Shown here piece after piece: positions 1,322-16,334 of a stretch of 44,828 nt of DNA (its first letter is position 1; each line of letters opens with the position of its first letter). Made by a program: the position numbers and the translations under genes. The notes below the pieces were generated by a model. That model was given only the letters and a program-made list of their open reading frames with translations. It had not been told where the DNA came from and did not search any database. The DNA comes from Bacteroidota bacterium (GTDB taxonomy: Bacteria > Bacteroidota > Rhodothermia > Rhodothermales > UBA10348), in contig JAJCYP010000048.1 in NCBI GenBank assembly GCA_029262855.1, forward strand, positions 1 to 44,828. The letters are read 5' to 3'.

Positions 1322-1330
1322 CCGGCCTCG

Positions 1331-1920: not shown

Positions 1921-1946
1921 TTCTTTGGGGAGTGACTACAATGTAT

Positions 1947-1960: not shown

Positions 1961-1999
1961 GGTCGATGTTCCGTCTGATATACTGATGTGACCGGACCG

Positions 2000-2056: not shown

Positions 2057-2083
2057 GTCCACTCTAACCAGATTTCCGAACTG

Positions 2084-2737: not shown

Positions 2738-2750
2738 GGTAGTGTGCGCA

Positions 2751-2811: not shown

Positions 2812-2819
2812 GGAAAACA

Positions 2820-3071
2820 CTAGGCTCTGGCCACACGGCGAATGGTCTGAATCTCCCTTGCCTTGGGCGATCGCATGGCGTGCCAAAGGTCCCAGTTGCG
2901 TTGGCCATTCAACCAGAACTCAGGAGTAGTCCCAAACAGCGCGGAGAGGCGTAGTGGTCGACCGACCGCGAGATAGTCGAGAAGATTCCGAACAGGGACG
3001 CGCGTACCTCGAAAGACAGACATGCCCCCCAGAATTCCCGGGTCGGGGTGAAAGGCCTTGTCGCGTTCCAT
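2820..3071 (-). CDS. Chimeric antitoxin-like ORF: DUF433 N-terminus joined to HigA C-terminus
   Basis: An 83-residue ORF made of two unrelated halves. Residues about 8-37 (PGILGGMSVFRGTRVPVRNL, LDYL) are the DUF433 winged-helix core of VapB/MbcA-like antitoxins. Residues about 40-83 (LRLSALFGTTPEFWLNGQ, WDLWHAM, REIQ) match the C-terminal helices of HigA antitoxins, with the XRE helix-turn-helix missing. No partner toxin lies in the same cassette. It may be an in-frame fusion left by a deletion between two neighbouring TA loci, and whether it is functional is unknown. Start ATG 3071, stop TAG just before attC C. Confidence 0.65.
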   Translation of the reverse strand: MERDKAFHPDPGILGGMSVFRGTRVPVRNLLDYLAVGRPLRLSALFGTTPEFWLNGQRNWDLWHAMRSPKAREIQTIRRVARA

Positions 3072-3144
3072 TGGGTCTGGATTTCTTATTCAGAAAGACG
3101 AATGCCAGAGAACACCGTTCCGATCCATCGCTGACGCAGTTGCG

Positions 3145-3206
3145 ACATAACGGGTAGGCGTTGAGCGGTGAGTGAGCGGAGCGAGGCCCGCTCCAGCGAC
3201 TTGCGC
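3145..3206 (-). other. attC-like site D (short)
   Basis: On the minus strand: R''-like GCGCAAG, arm GTCGCTGGAGCGG, arm CCGCTCAACGCCTACCC, R' GTTATGT. It lies 13 bases after the stop codon of the serine hydrolase gene. Confidence 0.7.
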
Positions 3207-3219
3207 GCGGTCTACGGGA

Positions 3220-4329: not shown

Positions 4330-4354
4330 GTCAGTGGTGTGTCTGGGTAGGGTC

Positions 4355-4402
4355 GCATGACGGCTGGCGTTGAGCGGCGAGTCCGCTCCAGTGCCGTGTA
4401 TC
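4355..4402 (-). other. attC-like site E (short, altered R')
   Basis: On the minus strand: R''-like GATACAC, arm GGCACTGGAGCGG, arm CCGCTCAACGCCAGCC, then GTCATGC in place of GTTRRRY. It follows the relE-type toxin stop codon by 16 bases. Confidence 0.65.
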
Positions 4403-4418
4403 TGTCCATGCTTCTTGA

Positions 4419-4709
4419 TCAACCATGGGGTGCGCCGGGAATCTGGGCATCGTGCCAAACGTCGACAATCCACACCGTGTCACCGACCACTCGATAGAAG
4501 AAACGATAGGGACGGACAATGACCTCACGGTACGGTAGCGCCGGGAACTCAGGCACACCCCGTCCCGATTCGGGGAAGTCTTCAAGTCGGGATAGTGTTT
4601 CTAGTGCTCGATCGTGGAATGACCACGCCGCCGTCGGACTTTCGTCGAGCAGATAGGCGACCGCATCCAGAAACACAGCCTCCGCGGTCGGAGTGAACCG
4701 AATCCTCAC
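4419..4709 (-). CDS. RelE/ParE superfamily toxin
   Basis: A 96-residue toxin predicted to act on ribosomes (RelE-like) or gyrase (ParE-like); the sequence alone does not decide. Features are IRFTPTAEAVFLDAV at the N-terminus, LEDFPESGRGVPEFP, and YREVIVRPYRFFYRVVGDTVWIVDVWH, the core beta strands of the fold. It begins at GTG 4709, overlapping the antitoxin stop as GTGA. A frameshifted paralogue with the same gene order lies at 5737-6006. Confidence 0.85.
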   Translation of the reverse strand: MRIRFTPTAEAVFLDAVAYLLDESPTAAWSFHDRALETLSRLEDFPESGRGVPEFPALPYREVIVRPYRFFYRVVGDTVWIVDVWHDAQIPGAPHG

Positions 4710-4984
4710 TTCCGCTCGCCCATCAAGCGGCGAGCCTTCTCGAAGACCAATGTCAGATCCGACCCCTGCCCTTCGGCGATTTCCCGTTCTCCGGTAGCGA
4801 GCGAACGCAGAATGTCGACCTCCCGCTGCGACCGCCGGTATTCCTCGGCGCTGACCAAGACGGCTGAGGCCCGACCATGCTGCGTTATAAACACGGGCTC
4901 CCGCGACGCCTTCAGTTTCTTGATGATGCCAGCTGCGTCCTGACGAAGCTCTGAAATCGGAATGATCTCTGGTACGGCACTCAT
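4706..4984 (-). CDS. Phd/YefM-type antitoxin
   Basis: A 92-residue antitoxin: EIIPISELRQDAAGIIKKL, then PVFITQHGRASAVLVSAEEY, the Phd/YefM DNA-binding fold, and a flexible C-terminal toxin-binding tail. It is first gene of a two-gene cassette. A good ribosome-binding site (AAGGAG, 7 bases before ATG 4984) and a near-perfect inverted repeat (5010-5031) upstream suggest an autonomous, self-repressed transcription unit. It is a paralogue of 6003-6281. Confidence 0.88.
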   Translation of the reverse strand: MSAVPEIIPISELRQDAAGIIKKLKASREPVFITQHGRASAVLVSAEEYRRSQREVDILRSLATGEREIAEGQGSDLTLVFEKARRLMGERK

Positions 4985-5009
4985 TTAACGACTCCTTGTG
5001 GTGTCATAG

Positions 5010-5031
5010 TTAGTACAACAACTTGTACCAA
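5010..5031 (-). promoter_or_regulatory. Inverted repeat upstream of phd, probable operator
   Basis: TTAGTACAA and TTGTACCAA flank a 4-base centre, an almost perfect 22-bp palindrome 25 bases upstream of the antitoxin start. This matches the kind of site bound by Phd/YefM-family antitoxins. A -10-like TACTAACT lies within it on the minus strand. Confidence 0.55.
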
Positions 5032-5054
5032 TCTGACCAGTTCCGTGGACAGAC

Positions 5055-5171
5055 AGATGACAGTTGGGCGATTTGCGGCGAGCCGCGCTGCGGCCCTACC
5101 TGCCTGAAGACACGGTACTGGTTCGAACTCGACTGCGCCAGTTGCGAGTCCGCAACTCCGCCTTGTTATCT
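5055..5171 (-). other. attC-like site F (long)
   Basis: On the minus strand: R'' AGATAAC, containing the TAA stop of the upstream frame, arm AAGGCGGAGTTGCGG, a long internal region with its own small hairpins, arm CCGCAAATCGCCCAACT, then GTCATCT. At 117 bp it resembles the long VCR-type attC sites. The arms pair well over GGCG..TTGCGG. Confidence 0.65.
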
Positions 5172-5610
5172 GCCCCTTGACCCAATAGGGAGCAGATACC
5201 GTATTCCCAGGCGCCAATCGCTGTTGGATGCGGGCGGACCCCAGCCCCTTTGCGACAACCTCAGTCCCAGGCGTGGCCCTGCTTCGACAACAAGGTGCTC
5301 ATCGAGTTGCGCTGCTAGCCACGCACCAATCTCCACGTTCGTCACGCCTGCAGAGAATCCAGAATCACCATCTGGTGAAGGATCGCCAGCGGCGTCGGGG
5401 TGGCGTGCAGAAAGTGGTGATTCGCGCCACCATGCAATTGAACCGACAGGCGGCCCGCTCGGACGACACCTCGAACGCGCGCGCCTACTGTAGTCGCACG
5501 GTAGCTGTAGTCAGAGCATCGTTGACTGCACGCATCATGCTGCGAGTCACCTGCAGCCCAGTGCCCAGCCGAAAGGGCGATGGTGGTAACAGTGAGTGAC
5601 AGACGGTGTC
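5166..5610 (-). pseudogene. Outer-membrane beta-barrel protein, frameshifted
   Basis: Two reading frames together resemble the beta-barrel protein at 12220-12828. One frame encodes CSDYSYRATTVGARVRGVV and RLSVQLHGGANHH, paralleling FSYKAATVGARGLVHL and LSFVLGYSHHA there. A second frame, entered near 5390, encodes GVTNVEIGAWLAAQLDE, VVEAGPRLGLRL and DWRLGIRYLLPIG before TAA in the attC R'' box. The shift breaks the protein, and no signal peptide or clear start is visible. It is a decayed cassette paralogue of the 12.2-kb gene. Confidence 0.6.
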
Positions 5611-5665
5611 GTTGGGCGATAGGCTTCTCGCTTGGCTGGCTCGAAGAAGAAGGTAGTCGCTGGAC

Positions 5666-5717
5666 AGATAGCGGTTGAGCGCTGAACGAAGTGAACCCAC
5701 TCCAATGGCTGATTATC
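5666..5717 (-). other. attC-like site G (short)
   Basis: On the minus strand: R''-like GATAATC, arm CCATTGGAGTGGG, arm TTCAGCGCTCAACC, R'-like GCTATCT. It follows the broken relE-type toxin by about 20 bases. A weaker arm-like stretch (ATCGCCCAACGACACC on minus, around 5605-5622) lies just to its left. Confidence 0.5.
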
Positions 5718-5736
5718 CGCCCTTCACAAGCTCGGA

Positions 5737-6006
5737 TCAGTCGGCAATTGTGCACCAGACCGCCAGAATCCAAGTATCGTTGCCCCTCTGCTGGTAGAAA
5801 AACGGTTCGGCGACACGACCACTTCGCGGACTGAACTGCTTGGGTATTGTGGGACCTGGCGACCGGAATTGGGAACGAGGTCAAACGCTTCAGGCGTTGC
5901 CAGACCGCTTTGAGTAGGCAACAGCGGCAGAGGGGCGGTCTCTACTGATATACTCGAGGGCCGAACTCAGTTGAGCCTCAGCCGAGGGGGTAAACCGGAT
6001 TCTCAC
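5737..6006 (-). pseudogene. relE/parE-type toxin, at least two frameshifts
   Basis: It starts with GTG overlapping the antitoxin stop (GTGA) and encodes VRIRFTPSAEAQLSS, then runs out of frame near 5905. A second frame carries LVPNSGRQVPQYP and VREVVVSPNRF. A third carries FYQQRGNDTWILAVW before TGA at 5737-5739. Pieced together it parallels the intact toxin at 4419-4709 (SGRGVPEFP, YREVIVRPYRFFY, DTVWIVDVW). The toxin is therefore dead while its antitoxin remains open. Confidence 0.75.
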
Positions 6007-6281
6007 TCGGACTCGGCCAAGAGCTTGTCAATCTTGTCAAACACGGTATGCAGGTCTTGTCCCGTTCCCGCGGATGCCTCGGCCTCTCCCTTGGCGATTG
6101 CACGAAGAAGTCCCAACTCGTACTGCGTCTTCTCGTAGGACCGAGTGCTCACCAGGACAGCGGTGGCGCGACTCCTCTGTGTAATGAACACGGGCTCCTC
6201 TGACATGCGAGTCTTCTTGATGACTCCGGCCATGTCTCGCCGCAACTTGGAAATGGGGATAATCGAGGGAACAGCAGTCAA
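6003..6281 (-). CDS. Phd/YefM-type antitoxin (partner toxin broken)
   Basis: A 92-residue paralogue of the antitoxin at 4706-4984: SIIPISKLRRDMAGVIKKT, PVFITQRSRATAVLVSTRSY, and a C-terminal toxin-binding tail. I chose the TTG start at 6281 because it aligns with the start of the paralogue; the nearest ATG is followed at once by a stop. The upstream region is only 33 bases before the previous gene, and no operator palindrome like that of its paralogue is seen. It now stands without a working toxin. Confidence 0.8.
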   Translation of the reverse strand: MTAVPSIIPISKLRRDMAGVIKKTRMSEEPVFITQRSRATAVLVSTRSYEKTQYELGLLRAIAKGEAEASAGTGQDLHTVFDKIDKLLAESE

Positions 6282-6282
6282 G

Positions 6283-6307
6283 ACATGACCCCGTTGGCAG
6301 GCTGCGG
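6283..6307 (-). other. Half attC-like site
   Basis: On the minus strand the 3' half of an attC can be read: arm CCGCAGCCTGCCAACGGG, then GTCATGT. The R''/L'' half is missing, and the upstream gene's stop is only 8 bases away. This suggests deletion of half the site and fusion of two cassettes. Confidence 0.4.
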
Positions 6308-6314
6308 AAGACCC

Positions 6315-6600
6315 TTACTTCTTCCAGTAGTCTGGGCGGCGTCGTTGATGACCGACGGCCAATATCAGTAGCTGATTTCCTTCTGGCCGATAAATGAGAA
6401 TGTACGGAAATCGCTGGAGTACGACTCTACGATGACCCGTTCCGATTGGGCGACCAATTTCAGGTCGCTCAACGATGAGATCACACGCTTGAATCAAAAT
6501 CTGCCAAGAAAGCCGCAGCCAGGTCGGCACTCTGCTCGGAATAGTATGCAACGGCAGAACGAATGTCTGACCAAGCCTCTTCGGAAATCTGAAAGCCCAT
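6315..6600 (-). pseudogene. ParE/RelE-type toxin with a single-base frameshift
   Basis: The 5' frame starts at ATG 6600 (MGFQISEEAWSDIRSAVAYY, then SEQSADLAAAFLADFD) and stops early. The 3' frame continues the same protein as QACDLIVERPEIGRPIG, RRVVLQRFPYILIYRP and LLILAVGHQRRRP, ending at TAA 6315-6317. Removing one base near 6491-6496 restores a normal toxin of about 95 residues. It may be a true inactivating mutation or a sequencing error. The start overlaps the antitoxin stop as TAATG. Confidence 0.75.
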
Positions 6601-6821
6601 TACAGGCCGAACTCTTTCCGGATGGCCGCCATCACCTCGTCGACGGGCATCATCTTCGATTCTCCACTTTGGTAAGACCGGAAGCGCCGATCAGCCTCGT
6701 CCGCCCATGCCTGTTCGATTTCGTCGTCCTCATCCAAACTCGAAATGAGGCGCTCTGCGAGCCGTGCTCGTACGCTTCGAGGCAACTTCAGGATTTCGGC
6801 TTCAAGTGCAGCGGTTGTCAT
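6600..6821 (-). CDS. Addiction-module antitoxin (ParD-like, TIGR02574-type)
   Basis: A 73-residue protein of the family annotated as addiction module component. An N-terminal helix (ALEAEILKLPRSVRARLAERL, ISSL) is followed by an acidic linker and the conserved tail PVDEVMAAIRKEF. Members pair with ParE/RelE-like toxins, and the partner directly downstream overlaps its stop by one base but is frameshifted. Start ATG 6821. The 72 bases to the next attC-like site show no clear operator palindrome. Confidence 0.8.
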   Translation of the reverse strand: MTTAALEAEILKLPRSVRARLAERLISSLDEDDEIEQAWADEADRRFRSYQSGESKMMPVDEVMAAIRKEFGL

Positions 6822-6893
6822 GCGTGGTACCGTTTAAGAGGCTTCACGAGTGTAACAAGTGCCGCACTGGATTGCTCCCTGCTGCCAGAAGCA

Positions 6894-7021
6894 GCCCAAC
6901 GGCTGGCGGCTCAGCGGCGCAGGGTCACGCCGGCGGTGGACGGCGATCAAGAGGCACGGGCAGGAAATACTTGCGCGATGGCATCGCACGCCCTCTTGAC
7001 ATTGAGGGCGACCGGTTAGCT
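6894..7021 (-). other. attC-like site H (long)
   Basis: On the minus strand: R'' AGCTAAC, containing the hicB stop codon, arm CGGTCGCCCTCAATG, about 80 bases of internal sequence, arm CCGCTGAGCCGCCAGCC, then a consensus-perfect R' GTTGGGC. At 128 bp it is among the longest and best R-box matches in the array. Confidence 0.65.
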
Positions 7022-7336
7022 GGCCTTCTCCAGCCATTCCGAGATCCACTGATTCAAGCTCTTGCCCTCGTGCTGCGCCCTCACGTAGACTTTTCGGTGC
7101 AACCCCGGAGGAAGCCGGAGCATTAATCTCCCAGAGAATGGCTTGTCCGGCACTTCACCGCGATCAGCACAGAACTCGAGGTAGTCGTCGATGGAGTCGC
7201 GAAACGCCGTCTCAAGATCATCGACGCTTCTACCCTGGAAGGTGACGACGTCACGCAAGTCGAGGACTTCACCATGCAGAAGTCCCGATTCGTCGTCGTA
7301 TTCGGCGCGCCCCGTATATCCCTTGTAATTCAGCAT
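7016..7336 (-). CDS. hicB: HicB-type antitoxin
   Basis: A 106-residue antitoxin. Residues 1-70 form the partial RNase H-like HicB fold (YKGYTGRAEYDDESG, LHGEVLDLRDVVTFQGRSVD, ETAFRDSIDDYL). The C-terminal segment (SGRLMLRLPPGLHRKVYVRA, then SLNQWISEWL) is a ribbon-helix-helix DNA-binding domain. The stop codon lies inside the R'' box of attC H. It follows hicA with a 3-base gap. It should neutralise the toxin and repress the operon at the palindrome 7600-7626. Confidence 0.88.
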   Translation of the reverse strand: MLNYKGYTGRAEYDDESGLLHGEVLDLRDVVTFQGRSVDDLETAFRDSIDDYLEFCADRGEVPDKPFSGRLMLRLPPGLHRKVYVRAQHEGKSLNQWISEWLEKAS

Positions 7337-7339
7337 CGT

Positions 7340-7603
7340 TTAAGTAGGTCTGATTCCAGCCTCGCGTAAGAAGCGGCGCATCGAGCGGAGCGCCCCCTTG
7401 TCAGTATCTGGCTTTGGATGCGGTCGGAGGAACACTGCTCCCACGCCGTTGAGTTGAATTCGAACCCGCGAACCGCACCCCTCGCTAAGGTCGGCACCCA
7501 GAGCCGGAAGCAGTTTCTCAATCTCGCTCCATTTCACATTCGCTCGAACGGGATCGTCGAAGACCGCGGTCAAGGTCTTATGGTGTTTGCTGGAGAGTGC
7601 CAT
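7340..7603 (-). CDS. hicA: HicA-type mRNA interferase toxin
   Basis: An 87-residue toxin resembling the HicA variant with an N-terminal helical extension: KHHKTLTAVFDDPVRANVKW, then IEKLLPALGADLSEGCGSRV, FLRPHPKP and a C-terminal MRRFLREAGI. The usual GSH catalytic site is read here as GSRV, so the histidine is not at its normal place, though a histidine occurs in RPHP, as in this subfamily. The chosen start, ATG 7603, lies inside a perfect inverted repeat. Toxin first, antitoxin second is the normal order for hicAB. Confidence 0.8.
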   Translation of the reverse strand: MALSSKHHKTLTAVFDDPVRANVKWSEIEKLLPALGADLSEGCGSRVRIQLNGVGAVFLRPHPKPDTDKGALRSMRRFLREAGIRPT

Positions 7604-7626
7604 AGTGTCGCGATGTGACACTATGG
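7600..7626 (-). promoter_or_regulatory. Perfect inverted repeat overlapping the hicA start, probable operator
   Basis: CCATAGTGTC, a 7-base centre, then GACACTATGG: 10-bp arms with no mismatch. The left arm includes the hicA start codon and no Shine-Dalgarno precedes it. Binding here would block transcription, and in mRNA the hairpin would hide the start codon. Confidence 0.6.
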
Positions 7627-7652
7627 GAGAACGTTGGTTCCTTACCTTGTCC

Positions 7653-7690
7653 AGCAAACGGCTTGGCAATAAGCGGTGGCGCCCTACTGA
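7653..7690 (-). other. Degenerate attC-like site
   Basis: On the minus strand only the 3' half is clear: CCACCGCTTATTGCCAAGCC followed by GTTTGCT. The R'' side, next to the stop codon of the secreted protein gene, is not recognisable. Probably a decayed or truncated attC. Confidence 0.35.
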
Positions 7691-8556
7691 ACAATCAATG
7701 TTTCGGATTGGCCACCCATTCGCACGAGGTACACCCCTCGCGAAAGAGCCGAAAGATCGATTCTGGTGCGGCCTGCCCTCTGCGCCTGACTCTGCATAAC
7801 TACCCGGCCAAGAATATCGTAGATCGTGACCGCACCCGGGACCTCGGACTCTACTGTTGCCCAGGCATGCGCAGGTCTCGGGAAGATCTGAAGACCGTGC
7901 GGAGCTACCGATTCATGGTATTCCTTTGTCACCACTTGTGCTCCGAATTGCTCGCCACCTAGGTTCGCGAAACGTAGTTCCCAAGTATCCATGTCGGCGA
8001 ACGGGCCGCACGGCTCGCAGCCTCCCGAAACGCGTAGTACGCCGATGCCGTGGACGGCCTGCATGGCCCAGACAAACGTCCCAAACTGCTTCACAGGCAC
8101 GTATATCTCTCCAAAAAGCGGGGTGCTCCGGACGCTATCTCTGCTCACGAACGGCCAACACTCAGGTGGTGAAGGATCAGCAGGTTCGTATGGCGCATTG
8201 AGGCAGGTCAAGAAACGCAGAATGCCGAACAAACGATCGCCCACGAGAGATGAAGCGGCTGAGTCAAATCGTACCAGGACGGTATCTCTTCTGAGGAGAG
8301 CACCAGCTGCGTCCCTCTCGACGAGCTCGATCCCGAAGTCTCCGGTTCCATCACCACCCTCTGCCCCAACGACCGAATACCTTTCAAATCGGATCTCGTC
8401 TCCCGTTGGAAAGCGCTGGAGGTAGTGTTCGTACTCCCAAGAGTTGCCGCTTTCCAACGGGAAGTAGCCACGCGCGTCCAAAGTGTCGGACGTTTGTCCG
8501 GCGACAGATGTCGCTGACGCCAGAAGCAGGGCCGCAAATATGGTCGTCCTAGGCAC
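7684..8556 (-). CDS. Secreted protein with T9SS type A sorting tail, cassette-borne
   Basis: A 290-residue protein with a signal peptide (FAALLLASATSVAGQ), a central region of unknown function with paired cysteines (CLNAPYEP..CWPF and GGCEPCGPF), and an 80-residue C-terminal domain. That domain carries the T9SS sorting pattern: GAVTIYDILGRVVM, then RTRIDLSALSRGVYLVRM and LIVQ. It should be exported through the Sec pathway and then through or onto the outer membrane. GTG 8556 directly precedes the signal peptide. The gene lies between a degenerate attC and attC I, so it appears to be a mobile cassette. Confidence 0.8.
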   Translation of the reverse strand: MPRTTIFAALLLASATSVAGQTSDTLDARGYFPLESGNSWEYEHYLQRFPTGDEIRFERYSVVGAEGGDGTGDFGIELVERDAAGALLRRDTVLVRFDSAASSLVGDRLFGILRFLTCLNAPYEPADPSPPECWPFVSRDSVRSTPLFGEIYVPVKQFGTFVWAMQAVHGIGVLRVSGGCEPCGPFADMDTWELRFANLGGEQFGAQVVTKEYHESVAPHGLQIFPRPAHAWATVESEVPGAVTIYDILGRVVMQSQAQRAGRTRIDLSALSRGVYLVRMGGQSETLIVQ

Positions 8557-8574
8557 TTCTCGCTCGTGTAAGTG

Positions 8575-8634
8575 GGATAACGGTTGGGCGATCAGCGGCG
8601 GCCTGAGGGCGACCGCTGCATTGACGGGTTAGCT
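8575..8634 (-). other. attC-like site I (short, well preserved)
   Basis: On the minus strand: R'' AGCTAAC, holding the brnA stop codon, arm CCGTCAATGCAGCGG, loop with GTCGCC..GGC, arm CCGCTGATCGCCCAACC, R' GTTATCC. It is the clearest short attC in the array, with textbook spacing and stop-codon overlap. Confidence 0.8.
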
Positions 8635-8856
8635 GGTCTTGACCGCCGGTCGCCACTTCATGGAAAGCCGTTTCTGCGTCTGGGCACACTCACGCAGGTA
8701 GAGATTGATCAGGGTCTGGTAGGGAATCCCGTTCTCTGCTGAGAGGCCCTTGAAGTAATCGATGGTGGGTCCATCCAGCCGGATTGTGACCGACCGCTTT
8801 AGCTTCTTGGCATACGGGTTCTTGCGGGCATTTGAGAAGTCGTAGTCGGTTCTCAT
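8629..8856 (-). CDS. brnA: BrnA-type antitoxin
   Basis: A 75-residue antitoxin: DYDFSNARKNPYAKKLK, then SVTIRLDGPTIDYFKGLSAE, GIPYQTLINLYLREC, the BrnA ribbon-helix-helix domain. It overlaps the upstream toxin gene by 4 bases (ATGA), which couples translation. BrnA normally both neutralises BrnT and represses the operon. The stop codon falls in the R'' box of attC I. Confidence 0.88.
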   Translation of the reverse strand: MRTDYDFSNARKNPYAKKLKRSVTIRLDGPTIDYFKGLSAENGIPYQTLINLYLRECAQTQKRLSMKWRPAVKTS

Positions 8857-9140
8857 CGCGTAGTGTATTGTCGACTCTCGGTTCGCGAGGCTTTTCTCGC
8901 CGAGATAATCCGGATGATTTCGTCTTGCTCGCGGTAGCAGTGGATCACAACTAGGAGTCGGAGTTTGGCGCTTAGTCCGAGGAGGATAAATCGGTCCTCT
9001 TCTTCCGAGTTGTCTGGATCGTCAATAACCAGCGCACCTTCGTCTGAAAACGCCGTCGCCGCCTCGTCGAACGAAACTGAGTGTTTTCGCACGTTGGATG
9101 CAGCCTTGTCTGGATCCCACTCAAACCGAAGATGAGACAT
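8853..9140 (-). CDS. brnT: BrnT-type ribonuclease toxin
   Basis: A 95-residue toxin with the BrnT pattern: RFEWDPDKAASNVRKHSVSF at the N-terminus, EAATAFSDE, RFILLGLSAKLRLLVVIHCY, and IIRIISARKAS with its catalytic arginine and lysine near the end. The fold is RelE-like and predicted to cleave RNA. Start ATG 9140, 9 bases downstream of an inverted repeat, with no Shine-Dalgarno, so the message may be nearly leaderless. Toxin first, antitoxin second is the known brnTA order. Confidence 0.88.
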   Translation of the reverse strand: MSHLRFEWDPDKAASNVRKHSVSFDEAATAFSDEGALVIDDPDNSEEEDRFILLGLSAKLRLLVVIHCYREQDEIIRIISARKASRTESRQYTTR

Positions 9141-9148
9141 AGCATTGT

Positions 9149-9167
9149 GTACTTACATCGTAAGTAC
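9149..9167 (-). promoter_or_regulatory. Inverted repeat upstream of brnT, probable operator
   Basis: Perfect 8-bp arms GTACTTAC and GTAAGTAC around ATC, 9 bases upstream of the brnT start. BrnA-family antitoxins are known to autorepress from a palindrome in this position. Confidence 0.6.
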
Positions 9168-9201
9168 GTATGATTCCCTGATTCGTTCCCCTGCTAGACC
9201 C

Positions 9202-9260
9202 AGGTAACGGTGGGCAATCAGCGGCGGCCGGAGGGTGACCGCTGAATTGCCTGGTTCTGC
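9202..9260 (-). other. attC-like site J (short)
   Basis: On the minus strand: R'' GCAGAAC, arm AGGCAATTCAGCGG, loop, arm CCGCTGATTGCCCACC, R' GTTACCT. Closely related to site I. The upstream gene's reading frame continues into the site and stops inside it. Confidence 0.75.
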
Positions 9261-9580
9261 GGCGTGGACTCATTCCCTCGCCGAAAGGAGTCGACCTCTC
9301 GGGCACCGTCAAACAGCGTCACCTTCTTACGAGACCTTTCGACATTGAACAGCGTGAATATAGCGGAAGCACCAATCACCAGGAGCGTACCCAAGCCGCG
9401 ATAGGCCTGGTCTCCCTTGGCGGGGGATCCCACAAGTCCAAACTCAAGCGCCCAACTCCACAAGCCGGTCAGCAACAAGATCCCGCCAACTAGACCGGCA
9501 GTGATTCGGGCCCAACGGATCTGCCGGCGAAGCTTCTCGACATGGTCAAAGACAACCTTTTGGTGCTCACCCTCCTTCAC
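9218..9580 (-). CDS. Small membrane protein of unknown function
   Basis: A 120-residue protein not recognised as a known family. Two hydrophobic segments are visible: about residues 26-46 (ITAGLVGGILLLTGLWSWAL) and about 65-80 (GTLLVIGASAIFTLF). They are flanked by basic stretches (KLRRQIRWAR and ERSRKK), consistent with a two-pass inner-membrane protein. It starts at GTG 9580 with AAAGG 7 bases upstream. The last 13 codons and the stop lie inside attC J, so the natural C-terminus may have been replaced by cassette-site sequence. Nothing is seen in 9581-9687. Confidence 0.6.
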   Translation of the reverse strand: MKEGEHQKVVFDHVEKLRRQIRWARITAGLVGGILLLTGLWSWALEFGLVGSPAKGDQAYRGLGTLLVIGASAIFTLFNVERSRKKVTLFDGAREVDSFRRGNESTPQNQAIQRSPSGRR

Positions 9581-9687
9581 GAGTTGCCTTTCAGATTAGC
9601 TCAACCCGTCGGAAACGTCTGGCTGGCTGGCGAGCCAAGCTGAAACCTGTTCGCTGACGCTCATTTTTTTCTGGTTGAATTGAGTCC

Positions 9688-9802
9688 GTGGAACGATTGG
9701 CGGATTTGCGGCGGGCACCGCGAACCATGACTAGGAAACCGGAGGCGGGACCGCAATAGGCATTTGACACCGAAGTGCCCGTCATCAACATGCGGGTTAT
9801 GC
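9688..9802 (-). other. attC-like site K (long)
   Basis: On the minus strand: R'' GCATAAC, including the higA stop, then about 90 bases, arm GGTTCGCGG..CCGCAAATCCGCCAATC, then GTTCCAC. At 115 bp it shares the right arm with long site F. Confidence 0.5.
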
Positions 9803-10063
9803 CGCCGATTCACGGGCGACATCCCAACCGGGAAACACAAGAACGGCAGGATGAACGCGGAGAGCGCGTGCGACAACCTTGGCCCTCTCGACTCCAAGAT
9901 TCACCCGGTCATTTTCTATGGCTGAGATGGTGGATTGTGGAATGCCGGTAAGTTCGGACAAGGCATTCTGGCTGAGCTCCTGGAGCTCTCGCATGATGCG
10001 CACAGATTCACCGACAGAGACGGTGACGCTTCTCCGAGCGCGGCTAAATTCGCTGGTGTCCAT
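9797..10063 (-). CDS. higA: HigA-type antitoxin, XRE helix-turn-helix
   Basis: An 88-residue protein with an XRE DNA-binding domain at about residues 20-75: ESVRIMRELQELSQNALSEL, then GIPQSTISAIENDRVNLGVE, RAKVVARALRVHPAVLVFP. The turn and recognition helix are TGIPQSTISAIEN. It follows the toxin with a 3-base gap, in the higBA order. It should bind the toxin and the operator near 10358-10378. The stop codon overlaps the R'' box of attC K. Confidence 0.85.
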   Translation of the reverse strand: MDTSEFSRARRSVTVSVGESVRIMRELQELSQNALSELTGIPQSTISAIENDRVNLGVERAKVVARALRVHPAVLVFPGWDVARESAA

Positions 10064-10066
10064 GAT

Positions 10067-10348
10067 TCACTTCCTACGGTAATCGTGGGGGGTGACATCG
10101 AATACGAGGACGAACAACTTGTCCGACTCGACACGGTAAATCACCCGGTATTGCTGATTCAAGCGCGACGACCTGTGGCCCGCCCAGTCCCCGCGCAGGG
10201 CTTCGTCCCTGAACCCCGTTATCAGTCGCAACCCTTGCGGACCCGAAGCCTCGACGACGTCCTTCCACTTCTCGTAGCGTTTCAGGACCTCGTGAGGTAG
10301 TCGCGAGAGACGCTTGGTGACCTTCCGGTGTTCGTAAACCTCCCACAT
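10067..10348 (-). CDS. higB: HigB/RelE-type toxin
   Basis: A 93-residue toxin with RelE-like core features: VYEHRKVTKRLSRLPHEVLK, WKDVVEASGPQGLRLITGF, DEALRGDWAGHRSSRLNQQY, RVIYRVESDKLFVLVFDVTP. The SSRLNQQYRVIYR segment carries the conserved arginines typical of ribosome-dependent mRNA interferases. Start ATG 10348, with no Shine-Dalgarno and an AT-rich leader containing an inverted repeat. First gene of a two-gene cassette. Confidence 0.85.
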   Translation of the reverse strand: MWEVYEHRKVTKRLSRLPHEVLKRYEKWKDVVEASGPQGLRLITGFRDEALRGDWAGHRSSRLNQQYRVIYRVESDKLFVLVFDVTPHDYRRK

Positions 10349-10357
10349 ACCATTAAT

Positions 10358-10378
10358 ATACTATACCGTATTTAGTAT
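10358..10378 (-). promoter_or_regulatory. AT-rich inverted repeat and promoter region of higBA
   Basis: ATACTA and TAGTAT flank a 9-base centre 9 bases upstream of higB, in a strikingly AT-rich patch. A -10-like TATAGTATAT lies inside it on the minus strand. Probable autoregulatory operator. Confidence 0.45.
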
Positions 10379-10394
10379 GTCAATGCACGAGGCG

Positions 10395-10440
10395 GCATAA
10401 CGGTGGGCGGATTTGCGGCCCGGGCCGCGTACTCAGATCC
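10395..10440 (-). other. attC-like half site L
   Basis: On the minus strand: GCGGCCCGGGCCGCAAATC, CGCCCACC, then R' GTTATGC. The right half matches the long class (sites F and K); no convincing R'' was found to its right. Likely degraded. Confidence 0.45.
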
Positions 10441-10737
10441 AACTCCTGCGCGGCGAGGCGTCAATGGCAGTTTCGCACCATTCCCGCTCATCCGGGGACC
10501 GGGGAGGCGGGCCGGATGATCGCAGTGCGACCGTGGCGGGCAAATCCATGCGGCGACGGATAACGCTTTGCGGCGAGCAACGCGACGGCTCGCCTGCCTG
10601 CGGACACTTTACTGATCCGAGGTCGCCCGCGCCGGTCGCGAGCCGAAACATCGTATTGTCATCTGGAGCCCGGTTGGCGCCGGCAGGCCGATGCTGTCCT
10701 AATCGCTTGGTGGATGGTGAAGCCTACCCTCCGTCTT
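10441..10737. other. Intercassette stretch with no gene, possible degraded attC
   Basis: No supported coding sequence. A GGATAAC box (10558-10564), followed by GCGGCGAGC and GCTCGCCTGC (an inverted repeat at about 10570-10595) and a GTTGGCG at 10673-10679, could be a long attC of about 122 bp. The arms match poorly. Probably an empty or eroded cassette. Confidence 0.35.
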
Positions 10738-12153
10738 CTATCTCAAAATCACCACATCGTTCGCCATTCTGTTCTCCGATCGGACAGATACTATGTACGT
10801 CCCCGGTCCGAGCCTGGACAGATCGAGTTCGCGCCCGGCAAGCGTCCGCCGAATCACAACCCGGCCGAGCAGGTCGAGTACCTGCACCTCCAGCGGCTCA
10901 CGGAACTCCGACGGCGGGCGGACGCTCAGAACGCCGGTGCCCGGATTCGGGTACACGGCGAGCCGGGACGGGTTGGGTCTGGCCTCGTAGTCGATCGCCG
11001 TCGTGACCGTAGAGTGATAGGCAACCCACATCCGCCCATCGATTTGGCCGATCGTATACAGACGACCATCCGGCATCACGACCAGATCCTGGATTTCGTC
11101 GTCGACGCCGGGGCGCCCGAGAACGGTGTTTTCAAGCAGTTCGCCCTCGGGGCTGAAGCGGAGGATGAAGCTGTTCTTGTCATGCGAAGAAAATCCGGAT
11201 TCCCACGAGCCGCCGACCATCAGGTCACCGGATGGTGCGACTGCGAGGCTTGTCGCCCAAACCACGGCCTCCGGCCCCAGCAAGTCAGCATACTGTCGAC
11301 TCCAGTTGATGGAGCCGTCGAGGCCCACAGACCAAAGTTCGAGTCGCAGCTGATAGGACGCGGCCGAATCATCGATGCTCCAGAATGCCAGATACAAAGT
11401 CTCGTCGACCAGCTCAATGGACGCGAAATAGCCCGCGTAGTAGCGCAGATTCGGCCAGGTATTCCAGAGAGACCAAAGTTCTGTTCCCTGGGGGTCATAC
11501 AGGGATAGGGTCAGCCATCGGCTTCCGACTAGATCGCCGTGAATGGTCTCGCTGGATCCAGCCAGAATCGCCATGCGGCCCTCGGGTGCGATGGTGACAT
11601 CCGCCGCCCACATACCGTGCGGGTAGGAGATCCCCCAGACCAGATTGCCGAGCGGGTCCAACCTGCCGACGTAGGCGGTCATGCCATCGTATCTGCCGCC
11701 GCTCCAGTGGTCACCCCCCAGGGCGATGCCTCCCGTCGGGTCTCGTGCGACGACGCCGATTCGGGGCTGGTGGGACTCGCCCATCGGTGTGGGCAATTCT
11801 GTAGTCCAGAGGAGCCGTCCGCCCGCGTCCAATCCTGCGGCTACATTGGAATAATCTGCACCGACAATGCCGCCATTCGGCCCCGATGCGACGGCCCGAA
11901 CCGAGGGCGAAGAGATCTCCCAGACTACCTCGCCGCCAGGAGTGAGGTGGACCAGGCAAGACGGAGACCCCGAACCCACAAGTCCTCCGTCGGACGTGGC
12001 GACGAGGTGCCAACCTCGCTCGCAGTCGAACAGCGCCTCCCAGTCCTGGTCCGTCTGGGCTGCGACAGGGCCAGATCCAAGAAGAAGAAGGCCGGCAGAC
12101 AAGCAAGCGGCGATACGCCCGCCAATTGCTCTATCGGATGCAGGTTGTTGCAT
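10738..12153 (-). CDS. Secreted beta-propeller-like protein with T9SS sorting tail
   Basis: A 471-residue exported protein. The signal peptide is about residues 12-33 (AACLSAGLLLLGSGPVAAQ). Residues about 40-380 are repeated blades of the type GGEVVWEIS, GGRLLWTTEL, LGNLVWGISYP, GTELWSLW and DGSINWSRQY, typical of PQQ-like/SBBP propellers. The C-terminal 75 residues form a sorting domain (LAVYPNPGTGVLSV, VQVLDLLGRVVIRR, LDLSRLGPGTYIVSV, VVILR). The YPNPGTG motif and the domain order are classic T9SS cargo. It lies in the cassette region between weak attC candidates; whether it is a true cassette is uncertain. Confidence 0.8.
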   Translation of the reverse strand: MQQPASDRAIGGRIAACLSAGLLLLGSGPVAAQTDQDWEALFDCERGWHLVATSDGGLVGSGSPSCLVHLTPGGEVVWEISSPSVRAVASGPNGGIVGADYSNVAAGLDAGGRLLWTTELPTPMGESHQPRIGVVARDPTGGIALGGDHWSGGRYDGMTAYVGRLDPLGNLVWGISYPHGMWAADVTIAPEGRMAILAGSSETIHGDLVGSRWLTLSLYDPQGTELWSLWNTWPNLRYYAGYFASIELVDETLYLAFWSIDDSAASYQLRLELWSVGLDGSINWSRQYADLLGPEAVVWATSLAVAPSGDLMVGGSWESGFSSHDKNSFILRFSPEGELLENTVLGRPGVDDEIQDLVVMPDGRLYTIGQIDGRMWVAYHSTVTTAIDYEARPNPSRLAVYPNPGTGVLSVRPPSEFREPLEVQVLDLLGRVVIRRTLAGRELDLSRLGPGTYIVSVRSENRMANDVVILR

Positions 12154-12166
12154 ATGCTCAAGGTAG

Positions 12167-12207
12167 CGCCAACGGCCCGAACGGCGCGGATTATAATCTT
12201 GTTATAT
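12167..12207 (-). other. Possible attC-like site O (weak)
   Basis: On the minus strand: ATATAAC just after the beta-barrel stop codon, a GC-rich hairpin (CCGCGCCG..CGG), then GTTGGCG. R-box positions fit, but the arms are weak and unlike the other sites. Confidence 0.3.
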
Positions 12208-12219
12208 GGCCGGCCGGTC

Positions 12220-12828
12220 CTAGTTGAATTGAAACTCAGTTCTCAGGCCAAATCGCCACTGGTGCTGATAGGGTTCGTCAGGATCCGCATTGATTTTGTG
12301 AACACTCAGAGCCTCCGGACCAATTCGTAGGCGATCGATAACTGGGATGAGTACGCGAACCCCCACTTCCGCGAGATTCAATCTGACTGTATGATCGCTC
12401 CCGATATTTCCGATGATGCCTGCGCCTCCTTCATAGGTAGCAAATACCGCGTGGTGCGAGTATCCGAGTACGAAGGACAATGGAATTGGCGCCCTGTCAA
12501 GGTGAACAAGTCCTCTCGCGCCAACGGTAGCAGCCTTGTACGAGAAAACAACGCAATCCGCGCAAAAACTGCTCTCTGATGTACCCTCCTCCCAGTATCC
12601 AAGGTGCGCCGCGCCTGAGACAGAGACGCCCGAACCTCCTTGAGAGAGCTTTCCGATGGCAAATTCAACCTCTACAATGGGCAGATAGTCTCTGTCATCA
12701 ACGCCGTAGTGTACTCGCTGTGTAGCGCCCACAAATACGGATACTCCTGATTGCAAGGACTGAGCCCCCGCGATAGACACGAAAAGAAGACACGAGAGGC
12801 TGATAGAGACGATCCTTCTGAACAACAT
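12220..12828 (-). CDS. Outer-membrane beta-barrel protein
   Basis: A 202-residue protein with a signal peptide (IVSISLSCLLFVSIAGAQ) and alternating strands: GVSVFVGATQRVHYGV, YLPIVEVEFAIGKL, GVSVSGAAHLGYWEE, FSYKAATVGARGLVHL, LSFVLGYSHHAVFATY, RLNLAEVGVRVLIPV. It ends with a beta signal in phenylalanine (WRFGLRTEFQFN, last residue N). It parallels the broken barrel gene at 5166-5610. Base composition is visibly more AT-rich than the core genes, suggesting separate origin. Function unknown. No attI or integrase lies upstream of it. Confidence 0.75.
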   Translation of the reverse strand: MLFRRIVSISLSCLLFVSIAGAQSLQSGVSVFVGATQRVHYGVDDRDYLPIVEVEFAIGKLSQGGSGVSVSGAAHLGYWEEGTSESSFCADCVVFSYKAATVGARGLVHLDRAPIPLSFVLGYSHHAVFATYEGGAGIIGNIGSDHTVRLNLAEVGVRVLIPVIDRLRIGPEALSVHKINADPDEPYQHQWRFGLRTEFQFN

Positions 12829-13159
12829 GGCAACGCTCTTGATTTAGCACACACTTCGGAAGTCTCAGTGCAAGACAGTAGCTGTTCAGGAATGGCAACC
12901 GGAATAGTGTGTCGGAGCGGTAGAATCAAGAACCGTCATCCTACGAACCGAATCCCCGGCCAACAGGTATTTAGCGGCGACGCCACTCGACTCCTCGGAA
13001 TTGCGGCTGCGCGGCGGTCACAACCGAAGTGTAACGATCGCAAGTGCTTGACGCCAATGGCAACTTGCCAAGATCCGGTTGTGCAGGCATGCCCCGGCGG
13101 CATATCACCTTGCGGGACAGTACGAAGAGCCTCTCTTCTCGGACACCGGAGGAAAACGC
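12829..13159. other. Non-coding junction stretch
   Basis: No supported gene on either strand. This is where attI and a divergent integrase would be expected if the array were complete; neither is recognisable. The open frame that crosses it on the plus strand only shows homology from about 13160 onward. Confidence 0.5.
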
Positions 13160-13626
13160 ATGGGACGCGAGCCGTAGATGTGCTTTTCAGGGCCGTGCTG
13201 AAAGACAAACGGCGTGAGATTGCTGGCGATACGGAAAAGCAGAGGAAGGACGTCGAACAGAAGCGCGATGCCGTCAATGAGAAGCTATACCGCTGCGACG
13301 AGATGTGGCTGGAGGGCAGCATCGAGCCCGATGCGCGCGAGCGGCTTCGGTCGCGGCTGATCCCCGAGCTTCAGCGTTACGAGTCCGACCTTCGCCAACT
13401 GGAGGCCGACTCAGTCCTTGACTTCGACGGCTTGGCAGAGGGGCTTGACCTGCTCAGCATCCTCCCGCAGGTCTGGCAGTCCTTGCACGAGCGTGGCGAT
13501 GCCGACGGCATCCACGCGCTCTGGGGTTCGATAATGCCCGAAAAGTCGGTCGTCGAAGATGGCGTTGTTCGAACCCCTTGGGGGGCCGCCATAATCCAAT
13601 TGGGCCAGAAACCAAGAACGCCGCCC
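13160..13626 (+). pseudogene. Large serine recombinase, C-terminal remnant
   Basis: About 150 codons on the plus strand match the C-terminal part of site-specific serine recombinases. A coiled-coil segment (LKDKRREIAGDTEKQRKDVE, then CDEMWLEGSIEPDARERL) is followed by a tail WQSLHERGDADGIHALWGSI, MPEKSVVEDGVVRTPWGAA. That tail is the conserved end often seen as SIFPEK..FDG..RT in Bacteroidota elements. The catalytic resolvase domain and the zinc ribbon are absent, so it is dead. It ends about 25 bases from the 3' end of tRNA-Glu, marking a likely island boundary. Confidence 0.65.
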
Positions 13627-13645
13627 CATCAACTGAGGCGGCGTC
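13605..13645 (-). terminator. Hairpin downstream of tRNA-Glu
   Basis: On the minus strand, ACGCCGCC, an 11-base loop, then GGCGGCGT, followed by TCTTGGTTT. A strong stem with a modest U-rich tail, just after the tRNA-Glu CCA end. Confidence 0.6.
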
Positions 13646-13650
13646 CCGGA

Positions 13651-13726
13651 TGGTACCGCGTACGGGATTTGAACCCGTGTTACCGCCGTGAAAGGGCGGC
13701 GTCCTAGACCCCTAGACGAACGCGGC
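13651..13726 (-). tRNA. tRNA-Glu (anticodon TTC)
   Basis: Cloverleaf on the minus strand: acceptor GCCGCGT pairs with ACGCGGT (one G-U pair), anticodon stem CCGCC/GGCGG around a CTTTCAC loop giving TTC, and T-arm CGGGTTCAAATCCCG. CCA is encoded. The accessory island lies directly against its 3' end. Confidence 0.93.
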
Positions 13727-13729: not shown

Positions 13730-13764
13730 AAAAAAGAGCTGCTCCGTGAGGGCGGCAGCTCTTT
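13730..13764 (-). terminator. Rho-independent terminator after tRNA-His
   Basis: On the minus strand, AAAGAGCTGC, loop, GCAGCTCTTT then TTTC: a 10-bp stem followed by a U-run, between tRNA-His and tRNA-Glu. Some transcripts must read through or tRNA-Glu must have its own weak promoter. Confidence 0.75.
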
Positions 13765-13841
13765 GGGGTGATCGAGGGGAATTGAACCCCCGACCTCCAG
13801 GGCCACAACCTGGCGCTCTAACCGACTGAGCTACGACCACC
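13764..13841 (-). tRNA. tRNA-His (anticodon GTG)
   Basis: Cloverleaf on the minus strand: acceptor GTGGTCG pairs with CGATCAC, D-arm AGCTCAGTCGGTTAGAGC, anticodon stem CCAGG/CCTGG around TTGTGGC giving GTG, T-arm GGGGGTTCAATTCCCC. CCA is encoded and a G at position -1 (13841) is present opposite C73, the histidine-specific identity element. Confidence 0.95.
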
Positions 13842-13967: not shown

Positions 13968-16334
13968 TCAGCGGATGACGGCGACCTTTCCGTACGAGGT
14001 TCCCTGCCCGTCATCGCCCACCGCAATGACCAGATAAACGCCGCTCGGCACCCGGTCGCCGTTCCGATCGCGTCCGTCCCAGCGGATCCGACCTCCGCGC
14101 GAGGAGAAGGCTGCGACCACCGAACCACCGGGTGTGACGATTCTGACCTGGGCGGACTCGACCAGGCCCTCGATGACGACTTCCTCGTCGCCTCGTACCG
14201 GGTTGGGATAGACGAAGAGGTCTCCGGCATCGGCTACGGGAGCGATGGCGTCGCCCTGGTAGCTCAACATCCCCTTGTCTGTGGCGAAATACACCCGTCC
14301 TGTCTCTGGGTCCACGGCAATAGAGAGCACCTCGTCTGAGAAAAGGGGCGAGTTGTCCTCCGAGAACTGAACGACGAGATCATAGCCGCCCTCGACGGCC
14401 TCGATGAGCCAGGCGCCTTGGGACGTCGCCACCCATAGCCGGTTTGCGGGGTCGACGGCCAGGTCATTGATCTGGAGGCCGAACAGGACGAACACGCCGC
14501 GGGCGCGGTCTGCCCACTGCGGCCAGATGGCGCGCGCGCTGGGGTCGCGGGCCACGATGCCGGTGTTGATGAAGTAGGCCAGGCCGGACTCGGTCCCAAT
14601 CCAGACCAGTCCGTCGCGGTCTTCGACAACCGAGAACACCTTCGGAGACGGGAGTCCGAGTCCGGCGGCTCCTGCCTGGTCAAAGAACCGGAAGGCATCA
14701 TCAGACTGGACTTCAGGCGTGCTTCCGGTCTCCAGAACCATGAGCCCACGGAAATCGGTCAGGTCATCCTCGTTTCTGACGATGATCCACTTCTGACCGA
14801 ACGAGTCCACAAAGATCTTCCCGTAGGCGGTCGCGCTTACCGTGAGTCCGTCGCCGACGTAGGGATCGTATCCAGTCCAACTGCCATCGGCCAGCCTGAC
14901 ATGCAGGGGCTGTGGCGTGGCCCGGGTGGTCACCCACAGGTTGTTGTCGGAGTCCGTCTCCACCCCGCTTGTGATGACGAAGTCCTCCGTTCCGGGAGCG
15001 GGGCGCAAGGATGAATTAGCTGGCGAATACCGCACGACTTCGCCTTCTGGGGTCACCTGAACCACACCGCTCCCTTCAGATCCGGCCCAGCCGTTCCCGA
15101 GAAGATCCACGGCAATGCGCGTGAAGAAGCCCCTGCCTTCGAGCACCGCCTCCGTGTTTCGGCTGTACGCGGTCCACCGACCGTCGCTTCCCAGCCTGTG
15201 GAATCCACCACCCACGTCGGGCGCACCGGCCGCCCACACGACGCCTCCGGGCCCTATCTCGAGCTCGGAGAACTGCGATTCAACTGGACCTTCCGGCGTC
15301 ACCGTATCGGTGACCGTGACTACGCCCGACCCGAGGTCCGCCAGGGAAACGCTGAGCAGACCGCCCTTGGCATCACCCACCCATGCGTTCGTGGTGCTCA
15401 CCCCGACAACTCCCGTAGGATCCTGGTAGCCCGGCAGCCCTAGCGCCACGCCCTGGAGTCCGGCATCAACCACGAACATGTTGAACCGCTCTGTCCCGAA
15501 CAGCCGCCCGCTTGAGACATCCATGGAGAAGACTCCCGACGACGAGACAAACTTCCGCTGGAAGTCACCGGCTCCGCGTCTGGCGAAGAGGTCAATGGTG
15601 GTCCCTACGTAAATCTGGGAGTCAAACCACGCGAGGCTCATCGCATCGTCGGCCGAGGACACAAGTCCCGATGACTCATTGCTCCACTGGGAGGGATCCT
15701 GCAGGTTGCCCCCTCCCATCCTTGCGTGGGCAAGGCCCTCGTCGGTCGCGACCCATATTCGGCTTTCGCCGGAGGCGCCCGGCGCGATCAGAACGTCGTT
15801 CGCCACAATCGCCGCCGAAAACGACCCGAGTCGCGTGTACGAATCGCGCACCTCCGTCTTGACGGGATCGAAGATCACTACACCGAACTCGGTGGCGATC
15901 AGCAGGGAATCGCCCCGAACGACAATTCTGTTGATCCCGCGCGAAGCAAACTGATCGGCGCGTTCAATATCCCGAAACGATGTGATGACGCCCGAAAGAG
16001 GATCAAGCCGATCCAGCACGCCGTTCGCGTAGCCTACCCACACAACCCCTCGTGCGGGATCCGTGGCAAGCGTCCGTGTCTGTACGCTGCTCAGCCCGTC
16101 GATTACCGAGAAGCGGCGTATTTCTCCCGTCGTGGTGTTGTATCCGAACACGCCGCCCTCGGTGGCAGCCCAGAGTTCATCGCCGCCGGACGCCAGAGCG
16201 AGAACCGACCGAAATGAGGTGTGTGCCTGCCAACCCTGAGGACCAGTCTGCGCGACGGCCTCCACCGACCCCGCGGCCAGGCCGAATAATGCCGCCAACA
16301 GGAGCGAGACCAATTGCAAGGGTGAGGCTCGCAT
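13968..16334 (-). CDS. porZ: PorZ-like type IX secretion propeller protein
   Basis: A 788-residue exported protein with signal peptide (LVSLLLAALFGLAAGSVEAVA). Two seven-bladed-propeller regions follow: about residues 33-330 (GWQAHTSFRSVLALASG, ELWAATEGGVFGYN, VVWVGYANGVLDRLDP, LIATEFGVVIFDP) and about 340-700 (IWIGTESGLAYF, LWVATSQGAWLI, VYFATDKGMLSY). A C-terminal domain of the FlgD-Ig/T9SS sorting type ends it (VYPNPVRGDEEVVIEG, IRWDGRDRNGDRVPSGVYLV, KVAVIR). Order and N-terminus match PorZ, the surface protein of the T9SS attachment complex. Start ATG 16334 overlaps the ribH stop (TGATG), so the two are likely co-translated. Confidence 0.75.
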   Translation of the reverse strand: MRASPLQLVSLLLAALFGLAAGSVEAVAQTGPQGWQAHTSFRSVLALASGGDELWAATEGGVFGYNTTTGEIRRFSVIDGLSSVQTRTLATDPARGVVWVGYANGVLDRLDPLSGVITSFRDIERADQFASRGINRIVVRGDSLLIATEFGVVIFDPVKTEVRDSYTRLGSFSAAIVANDVLIAPGASGESRIWVATDEGLAHARMGGGNLQDPSQWSNESSGLVSSADDAMSLAWFDSQIYVGTTIDLFARRGAGDFQRKFVSSSGVFSMDVSSGRLFGTERFNMFVVDAGLQGVALGLPGYQDPTGVVGVSTTNAWVGDAKGGLLSVSLADLGSGVVTVTDTVTPEGPVESQFSELEIGPGGVVWAAGAPDVGGGFHRLGSDGRWTAYSRNTEAVLEGRGFFTRIAVDLLGNGWAGSEGSGVVQVTPEGEVVRYSPANSSLRPAPGTEDFVITSGVETDSDNNLWVTTRATPQPLHVRLADGSWTGYDPYVGDGLTVSATAYGKIFVDSFGQKWIIVRNEDDLTDFRGLMVLETGSTPEVQSDDAFRFFDQAGAAGLGLPSPKVFSVVEDRDGLVWIGTESGLAYFINTGIVARDPSARAIWPQWADRARGVFVLFGLQINDLAVDPANRLWVATSQGAWLIEAVEGGYDLVVQFSEDNSPLFSDEVLSIAVDPETGRVYFATDKGMLSYQGDAIAPVADAGDLFVYPNPVRGDEEVVIEGLVESAQVRIVTPGGSVVAAFSSRGGRIRWDGRDRNGDRVPSGVYLVIAVGDDGQGTSYGKVAVIR

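Follow-up and report, generated by a model that had tools for sequence, protein, structure and literature searches.

An integron cassette array without intI beside a tRNA-Glu gene and a large serine recombinase remnant in a Rhodothermales genome

Cassette arrays of the CALIN type are characterized by several attC sites on the same strand, with their cassettes and no intI nearby. In Xanthomonas, CALINs have been located at repeated chromosomal positions other than the intI locus, and CALINs are described as mobilisable in trans (PMC12444791, available text), while a Shewanella prophage was shown to carry a CALIN with its own attI (PMC9892861, available text). Term counts show no mention of tRNA in the main text of either paper. 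A second related system is the genomic island at a tRNA 3' end, in which synteny stops at that end, a variable interval lies beyond and an integrase remnant can stand at the edge. For M. abscessus, the available text of PMC10654092 reports overlap with tRNA or tmRNA genes at 16 of 23 tyrosine-integrase sites and names no tRNA for six serine-integrase sites. The third system comprises the large serine recombinases (LSRs), built of Resolvase, Recombinase and zinc ribbon domains.

The window analysed here is the whole of one contig (C48, 44,828 bp) of a Rhodothermales MAG of 4.74 Mb in 146 contigs, with a completeness of 98.95% and a contamination of 4.29%. Its left part resembles a CALIN, and differs from the Xanthomonas and Shewanella cases in the tRNA-Glu 3' end, the serine recombinase remnant and the Rhodothermales MAG in which it lies. 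The locus shares with tRNA-borne islands the end of synteny at the tRNA, the variable interval and the integrase remnant at the edge, but the recombinase is of the serine type. Full-length relatives of this remnant match the three LSR domains, whereas of the window copy only the C-terminal third is left, and the family is found mostly at tRNA ends, where its stop codon often falls within the tRNA. Arrangements of this kind, a CALIN at a tRNA hot spot, are already known; the tRNA-linked LSR family is the notable part. We read the left part of the window, with a probability of about 0.7, as a CALIN occupying an insertion hot spot at tRNA-Glu, where an LSR element integrated later and then decayed. 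The placement in a hot spot is argued from the end of homology with 18 relatives at the tRNA 3' end, together with an array lacking intI in the congener SS_bin_36. The features are collected in Table 1.

Table 1. Features of the array, the junction region and the conserved flank in the window
Feature	Position	Strand	Remarks
Integron cassette array (CALIN)	1..12828	-	nine attC and toxin-antitoxin/cargo genes; leftward; runs off the contig's left end
attC, outside training set	1276..1319	-	R1 23.1 bits
Cassette genes, PemK/MazF-type toxin and antitoxin	1331..1920	-	PemK_toxin 3e-28; antitoxin match weak, below cut-off
attC, training sequence	2002..2052	-	R1 60.3 bits
attC, training sequence	2753..2808	-	R1 68.1 bits
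attC, training sequence	3147..3206	-	R1 60.4 bits
attC, outside training set	4357..4400	-	R1 31.8 bits
Long attC, outside training set	5057..5168	-	R1 24.6 bits; absent from the whole-genome R1 run
attC, weakest, outside training set	5668..5715	-	R1 17.1 bits, E 0.0036
Cassette genes HicB, HicA	7016..7669	-	Pfam HicB 1e-19, HicA 1.8e-11
attC, training sequence	8577..8631	-	R1 69.1 bits
Cassette genes BrnA, BrnT	8629..9140	-	Pfam BrnT 6.8e-29, BrnA 1.2e-6
attC, training sequence	9204..9257	-	R1 63.3 bits
Array gene with type IX secretion sorting domain	10738..12153	-	Por_Secre_tail 7.8e-9
Array ORF nearest the attI side (first)	12220..12828	-	matches no family
Core-site-like motif (attI or attC 3' end)	12959..12980	-	array's attI-proximal edge
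LSR C-terminal remnant (aligned part)	13108..13611	+	tblastn with full-length relatives
tRNA-Glu (UUC), complete	13651..13726	-	3' end is the edge of conserved synteny
tRNA-His (GUG), conserved flank	13764..13840	-	beside tRNA-Glu
Conserved 788-aa protein, core flank marker	13968..16334	-	E<=1e-3 in 58 of 60 genomes, E<1e-90 in 52

The conserved side of the junction is marked by the 788-aa protein, whose nearest named relative belongs to the Rhodothermales MAG SS_bin_36 (80% identity in the best segment). Next to this protein, tRNA-His followed by tRNA-Glu is found in 18 of 19 relatives' regions, the remaining one (L097) being cut by a contig end. A preliminary description of this DNA, made from the letters alone, had placed the 3' end of tRNA-Glu here; the tRNA is present, as a complete gene beside tRNA-His rather than merely a 3' end. 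BLASTN homology to the window stops at 13642–13653 in all 18 relatives, and the first 13.64 kb have no BLASTN match in the tRNA-Glu regions of the 19. On this ground, positions 1–13 kb were rejected as ordinary core, and the comparison of the tRNA-Glu flank with relatives that had been recommended shows DNA that is not shared core. Synteny broken at the tRNA 3' end, as seen against 18 relatives, is what characterizes a tRNA-borne island. Three of these 19 regions extend no more than 111 bp beyond the tRNA (103 bp in L099 and 111 bp in L101).

Beyond tRNA-Glu, at least 11 relatives carry an Lnb-family gene at a distance of 0.15–10.8 kb, assigned by Pfam for L089 and by tblastn to the L089 protein for the others, and iPGM is nearby in at least nine. 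The Lnb/iPGM pair is inverted in L103, and in G001 iPGM lies about 37 kb from tRNA-Glu. In the assembly studied here, C143 carries iPGM, within a stretch that is syntenic with G001. A neighbour shared with G001 was rejected, the best match here to the G001 epimerase having just 32% identity.

A duplicated tRNA 3' end, recommended as something to look for on the far left, was not found there: within the sensitivity of the search, neither the left of the window nor the rest of the assembly holds a far copy of the tRNA-Glu 3' end, except on C103, and C48 ends inside the array. The island is therefore undefined on its left. Extra 3'-end copies in G047 and on C103 indicate that tRNA-Glu 3' ends are used repeatedly. 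In G047, 50 bp of the tRNA-Glu 3' end recur (96%) at a distance of 1.9 kb, and the stretch reads as a minimal or decayed element. Between the tRNA-Glu and this copy (L090 11101–13000) small ORFs are seen, one of them HicA-like by eye, and no integrase was recognised by eye. On C103, the 3' end of tRNA-Glu (CUC) recurs 7.2 kb on over 21 bp and 7.4 kb on over 18 bp, and a tyrosine recombinase lies in the interval (C103:35685-43198; L148 2686-10199). From the first C103 copy onward, 174 bp share 79% identity with the G001 tRNA-Glu (UUC) end and the DNA after it, so that element ends may be common to both tRNA-Glu sites.

All of the recognised genes across 1–12.8 kb are on the minus strand, as are the nine attC sites, in agreement with the leftward reading of the cassettes that had been described; attI and intI are accordingly expected to the right of the array. 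Since the array runs off the contig, its far end is unseen, and this unseen side is the attI-distal one. Besides the toxin–antitoxin pairs in Table 1, the array holds Phd/YefM-type and further toxin–antitoxin genes, as well as a protein with a serine-hydrolase/beta-lactamase-type fold for which every NCBIfam match is far below the cut-off. Type IX secretion C-terminal sorting domains are seen on two array proteins (genes 7684–8556 and 10738–12153).

The attC sites were searched with a home-made covariance model (R1), not with IntegronFinder, built on a hand-drawn attC structure and six training sites, five from the window and one from C101. At the window threshold of E<0.01, R1 finds nine sites in the 44.8 kb, all on the minus strand between 1276 and 9257 and four of them outside the training set, where two or more close attC characterize a CALIN. 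Two other window matches, at 15059 on the plus strand (E 0.3) and 44295 on the minus strand (E 0.61), were taken as chance. In the R1 structure 87.8% of cells pair, versus 26–50% with the partner slid by 1–3 columns, a control that leans towards the structure because it was drawn from the same sequences; of the five measures of covariation, two (pairs changed on both sides and further pair types) do not rise above shuffles. Single-site RNA folding gives a more stable plus (bottom) strand in eight of the nine attC, with a margin of only 0.1–0.4 kcal/mol in two, and the opposite preference in the long attC at 5057. Run on the whole assembly, R1 has 20 matches (E<=1), distributed over eight contigs (C48, C101, C17, C140, C73, C118, C78 and C131). 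Rfam, run on 1–16000 at E<=1, returns four matches with no attC family among them. In Roseithermus, an R1 match (20 bits, E 0.0014) lies about 1 kb from the tRNA-Glu pair (L098 2047-2099).

No intI can be detected beside the attI-proximal end of the array: tblastn with nine IntI proteins from relatives against 1–16000 gives two matches only, with E 0.20 and 0.95, which upholds the earlier claim that intI is missing to the right of the cassettes. The absence of an integrase beside the array is characteristic of a CALIN, and the window lacks the intact intI at attI at the proximal end that a complete (sedentary) integron carries. The genome-wide search for intI that had been proposed leads to the same result, with 17 TIGR02249 matches at E<=1e-3 on the 4.74-Mb assembly and none of the 17 over the cut-off. 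The best is a decayed gene on C101 (4,154 bp), present as two pieces in different frames (model positions 114–183 and 244–314) and missing the N-terminal part and a middle piece. The nine IntI queries match these pieces at 33–75% identity; the alignment of one query (L029) over residues 24–191 at 33.5% identity was taken as a spurious tblastn extension. The same queries reach an ordinary tyrosine recombinase on C103 with E 5e-10 to 2e-5. A region on C73 (8070-8740) was rejected as a second intI, being frame-shifted and far below the cut-off; the large ORF directly after it is presumably an IS91-type transposase.

The C101 remnant adjoins an amino-acid permease/TrkA gene. On its other side there are a PIN-domain gene and an attC reading away, with HicA/HicB-like ORFs on the opposite strand. 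C101 carries the best-scoring attC of the R1 set, of the same type as those of the window, and C101 and the other attC contigs are tied to the array by attC similarity alone, in an assembly with 4.3% contamination. Collinear continuation of the array from C101 was rejected: both contigs end at their attI-distal sides, and they could therefore join only tail to tail. Since the sole intI seen is decayed and on another contig, the array could now change only with IntI supplied in trans. Among the 60 relatives' genomes, 25 have intI over the cut-off; the family has it in 13 of its 27 genomes (interrupted by an in-frame stop in G006 and G018) and the genus in none of its three.

The DNA between the array and the recombinase had been described as empty. 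It is indeed free of intI, but not wholly empty, since a junction-like motif stands at the array's proximal edge. This motif differs from the junction site of SS_bin_36 at five of 22 positions (five of 20 in the short form), at the expected spot and on the expected strand, and one in 5000 shuffles of the gap matches that site equally well. With up to two mismatches, the junction motif occurs at three places in two of 27 family genomes, including C101 beside the intI remnant and C20; this number is not above chance, as the reversed-pattern control also finds three places (in three genomes), and only the positions speak. The sequence suggests a putative attC end, given a 5' partner box in SS_bin_36 and on C78 (TAACTGCCATTGCG-like) and partial pairing in SS_bin_36, while the position suggests attI. 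The array's first junction site may be retained at 12959, in a degenerate form.

In SS_bin_36 (G002), an array at the same tRNA-Glu starts about 0.4 kb away and reads away from the tRNA. In this region (L088), tRNA-Glu ends at 7810, 15 bp of the tRNA 3' core recur exactly at 7952–7966 and the junction site lies at 8205–8224. Beyond it are two ORFs pointing away from the tRNA, and behind each of them stands a 137-bp repeat with attC-like ends (8660–8796 and 9281–9417, 86% alike). Of these repeats, R1 recognises just the second, with a weak score (15.9 bits, E 0.035). The cassette start at 8219–8342 recurs at 9413–9536 (124 bp, 100% identity), which suggests a recent cassette duplication. Because the same cassette start follows the 8205 site once and a 137-bp repeat once, 8205–8224 is recognised as a recombination junction. 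The contig ends 1.3 kb into the array. Neither intI over the cut-off nor an LSR match is found in this genome, which is 88% complete, and no cassette is common to it and the window, BLASTN sharing short attC-like pieces only.

The LSR remnant lies in a frame (ORF 12751–13707) that stays open to 13707, inside tRNA-Glu. Four of five full-length LSR queries align within the remnant by tblastn, with E 1.6e-5 to 1.3e-15; the fifth (L119) has no window match at E<=0.01 in tblastn and matches the remnant in another search (2.4e-7). The preliminary description had recognised the C-terminal third of a serine recombinase, and the alignments bear this out, beginning at residues 352–356 in three relatives and at 318 in one, of 519–541. 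The window counterpart thus runs from residues 318–356 onward, without the N-terminal resolvase catalytic domain of a functional LSR. Descent from an LSR is indicated by 31–37% identity of the 157-aa remnant to the C-terminal part of four loci (E<1e-6). Resolvase, Recombinase and zinc ribbon Pfam matches are present in four full-length relatives, three of them from these four loci and one more, with the zinc ribbon of L117 below the cut-off. The remnant itself is too short for Pfam, which gives no family; PHROGs returns a weak match to integrase phrog_95 (E 7e-4), and a plasmid search with the remnant found none.

Among the other 59 genomes, five contain matches to the remnant, at six loci in total, and at each of these a tRNA 3' end faces the LSR 3' end. 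A search with a Roseithermus LSR across 114 genomes of the order at E<=1e-20, a threshold at which the window's own remnant is missed, gives 11 matches in nine genomes, including those six (L168-L178; G032, G034, G033, G056, G086, G047, G055, G077 and G031). A convergent tRNA lies within 220 bp in nine of the 11 (Asn three times, Gln and Leu twice each, Lys and Arg). The first in-frame stop falls inside the tRNA in seven of these nine, and three of the nine are C-terminal-side fragments like that of the window. The two matches without a tRNA are L174, which is full length and a real exception, and L175, an N-terminal part whose contig ends 223 bp on. As a control, a tRNA was found at one of 20 intI loci of the same order, mostly from other genomes than the LSR loci; the one counted, L020 (G047:C8), has an intI over the cut-off at 1501–2439, with its 3' end about 75 bp from tRNA-Arg (1350–1426). 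We infer that the LSR family may target tRNA genes. Far att repeats at six LSR loci, sought over 40 kb, do not exceed exact matches of 12 bp, close to chance, a result that the short cores of serine recombinases would allow (PMC10654092, available text).

In a limited search of open papers, no tRNA-directed serine recombinase family is reported in the available text of PMC10083194, PMC10654092, PMC12884075, PMC4701971, PMC8637289, PMC9892861 or PMC12444791, although one may exist; the term tRNA is absent from the available text of PMC10083194. Within the same limits, no literature joining the integron with Rhodothermales was found. The family members are candidate tRNA-directed serine recombinases and look unusual against the open literature in the portions examined.

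In the proposed sequence of events, IntI acting on attC sites would have strung the cassettes together; intI would then have decayed, leaving the cassettes, many of them toxin–antitoxin genes, as a passive store movable in trans. The tRNA-Glu 3' end would have acted as an attachment site for integrative elements, one of which, with a tRNA-directed LSR, would have integrated between tRNA-Glu and the array. The 5' part of the LSR gene would later have been lost in a deletion that extended to the edge of the array and left the C-terminal fragment against the tRNA as a scar. We infer this order of events and which element moved what. Integration of an element at a tRNA 3' end should displace older DNA away from the tRNA, so that the latest arrival is the DNA closest to it. 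As entering DNA should land beside the tRNA, and SS_bin_36 has an array with no LSR match, the array would have come first and the LSR later.

The reverse, in which an LSR island integrated at tRNA-Glu carried the array inside it and its recombinase then decayed, is unlikely. The remnant does stand where an integrase gene at an element's edge would be expected, with the tRNA on one side and the proximal end of the array on the other, and most of its relatives likewise converge on a tRNA 3' end. However, the congener has its array at the same tRNA-Glu without an LSR match, no far repeat was found and the expected layering makes the DNA nearest the tRNA the latest arrival. We think that the array preceding the LSR is favoured by about three to one over carriage within an LSR island, on the evidence of one congener. 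It had been proposed from the start that intI was lost or that the array was carried here in a mobile element; this was the right pair of options, but delivery by the LSR has been weakened by the congener array.

Somewhat more doubtful is a complete integron once situated here, its intI between tRNA-Glu and the array's first site having been deleted, a history compatible with a CALIN today. The core-site-like motif at the proximal edge in both species would fit it, but neither species has a trace of intI beyond chance between tRNA-Glu and the array, and the genome's decayed intI is on C101, beside the permease/TrkA gene. Moreover, 21 of the 25 genomes with intI over the cut-off clearly match the tRNA-Glu flank protein, and in none of the 21, many of them fragmented, does a contig carry such an intI less than 0.77 Mb from that protein. 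A misjoin of an array contig to the tRNA-Glu core contig is very improbable: assemblies do break at repeated attC sites, and eight contigs have attC matches here, but the separately assembled congener MAG has the same kind of tRNA-Glu/array junction with unrelated DNA between.

A wider and rather improbable proposal is that Rhodothermales hold an LSR family dedicated to tRNA 3' ends, with its frame ending in the tRNA, and that it makes these tRNAs docking sites at which arrays without an integrase are both delivered and kept; if true, serine-recombinase islands, and not an integron, would carry cassettes from genome to genome. Under the preferred reading, a CALIN in a tRNA-Glu hot spot followed by an LSR element, two congeneric species carry arrays at the same tRNA hot spot, lacking an integrase and without common cassettes by BLASTN, and offer a natural case for studying how cassette arrays persist and move after the decay of intI.
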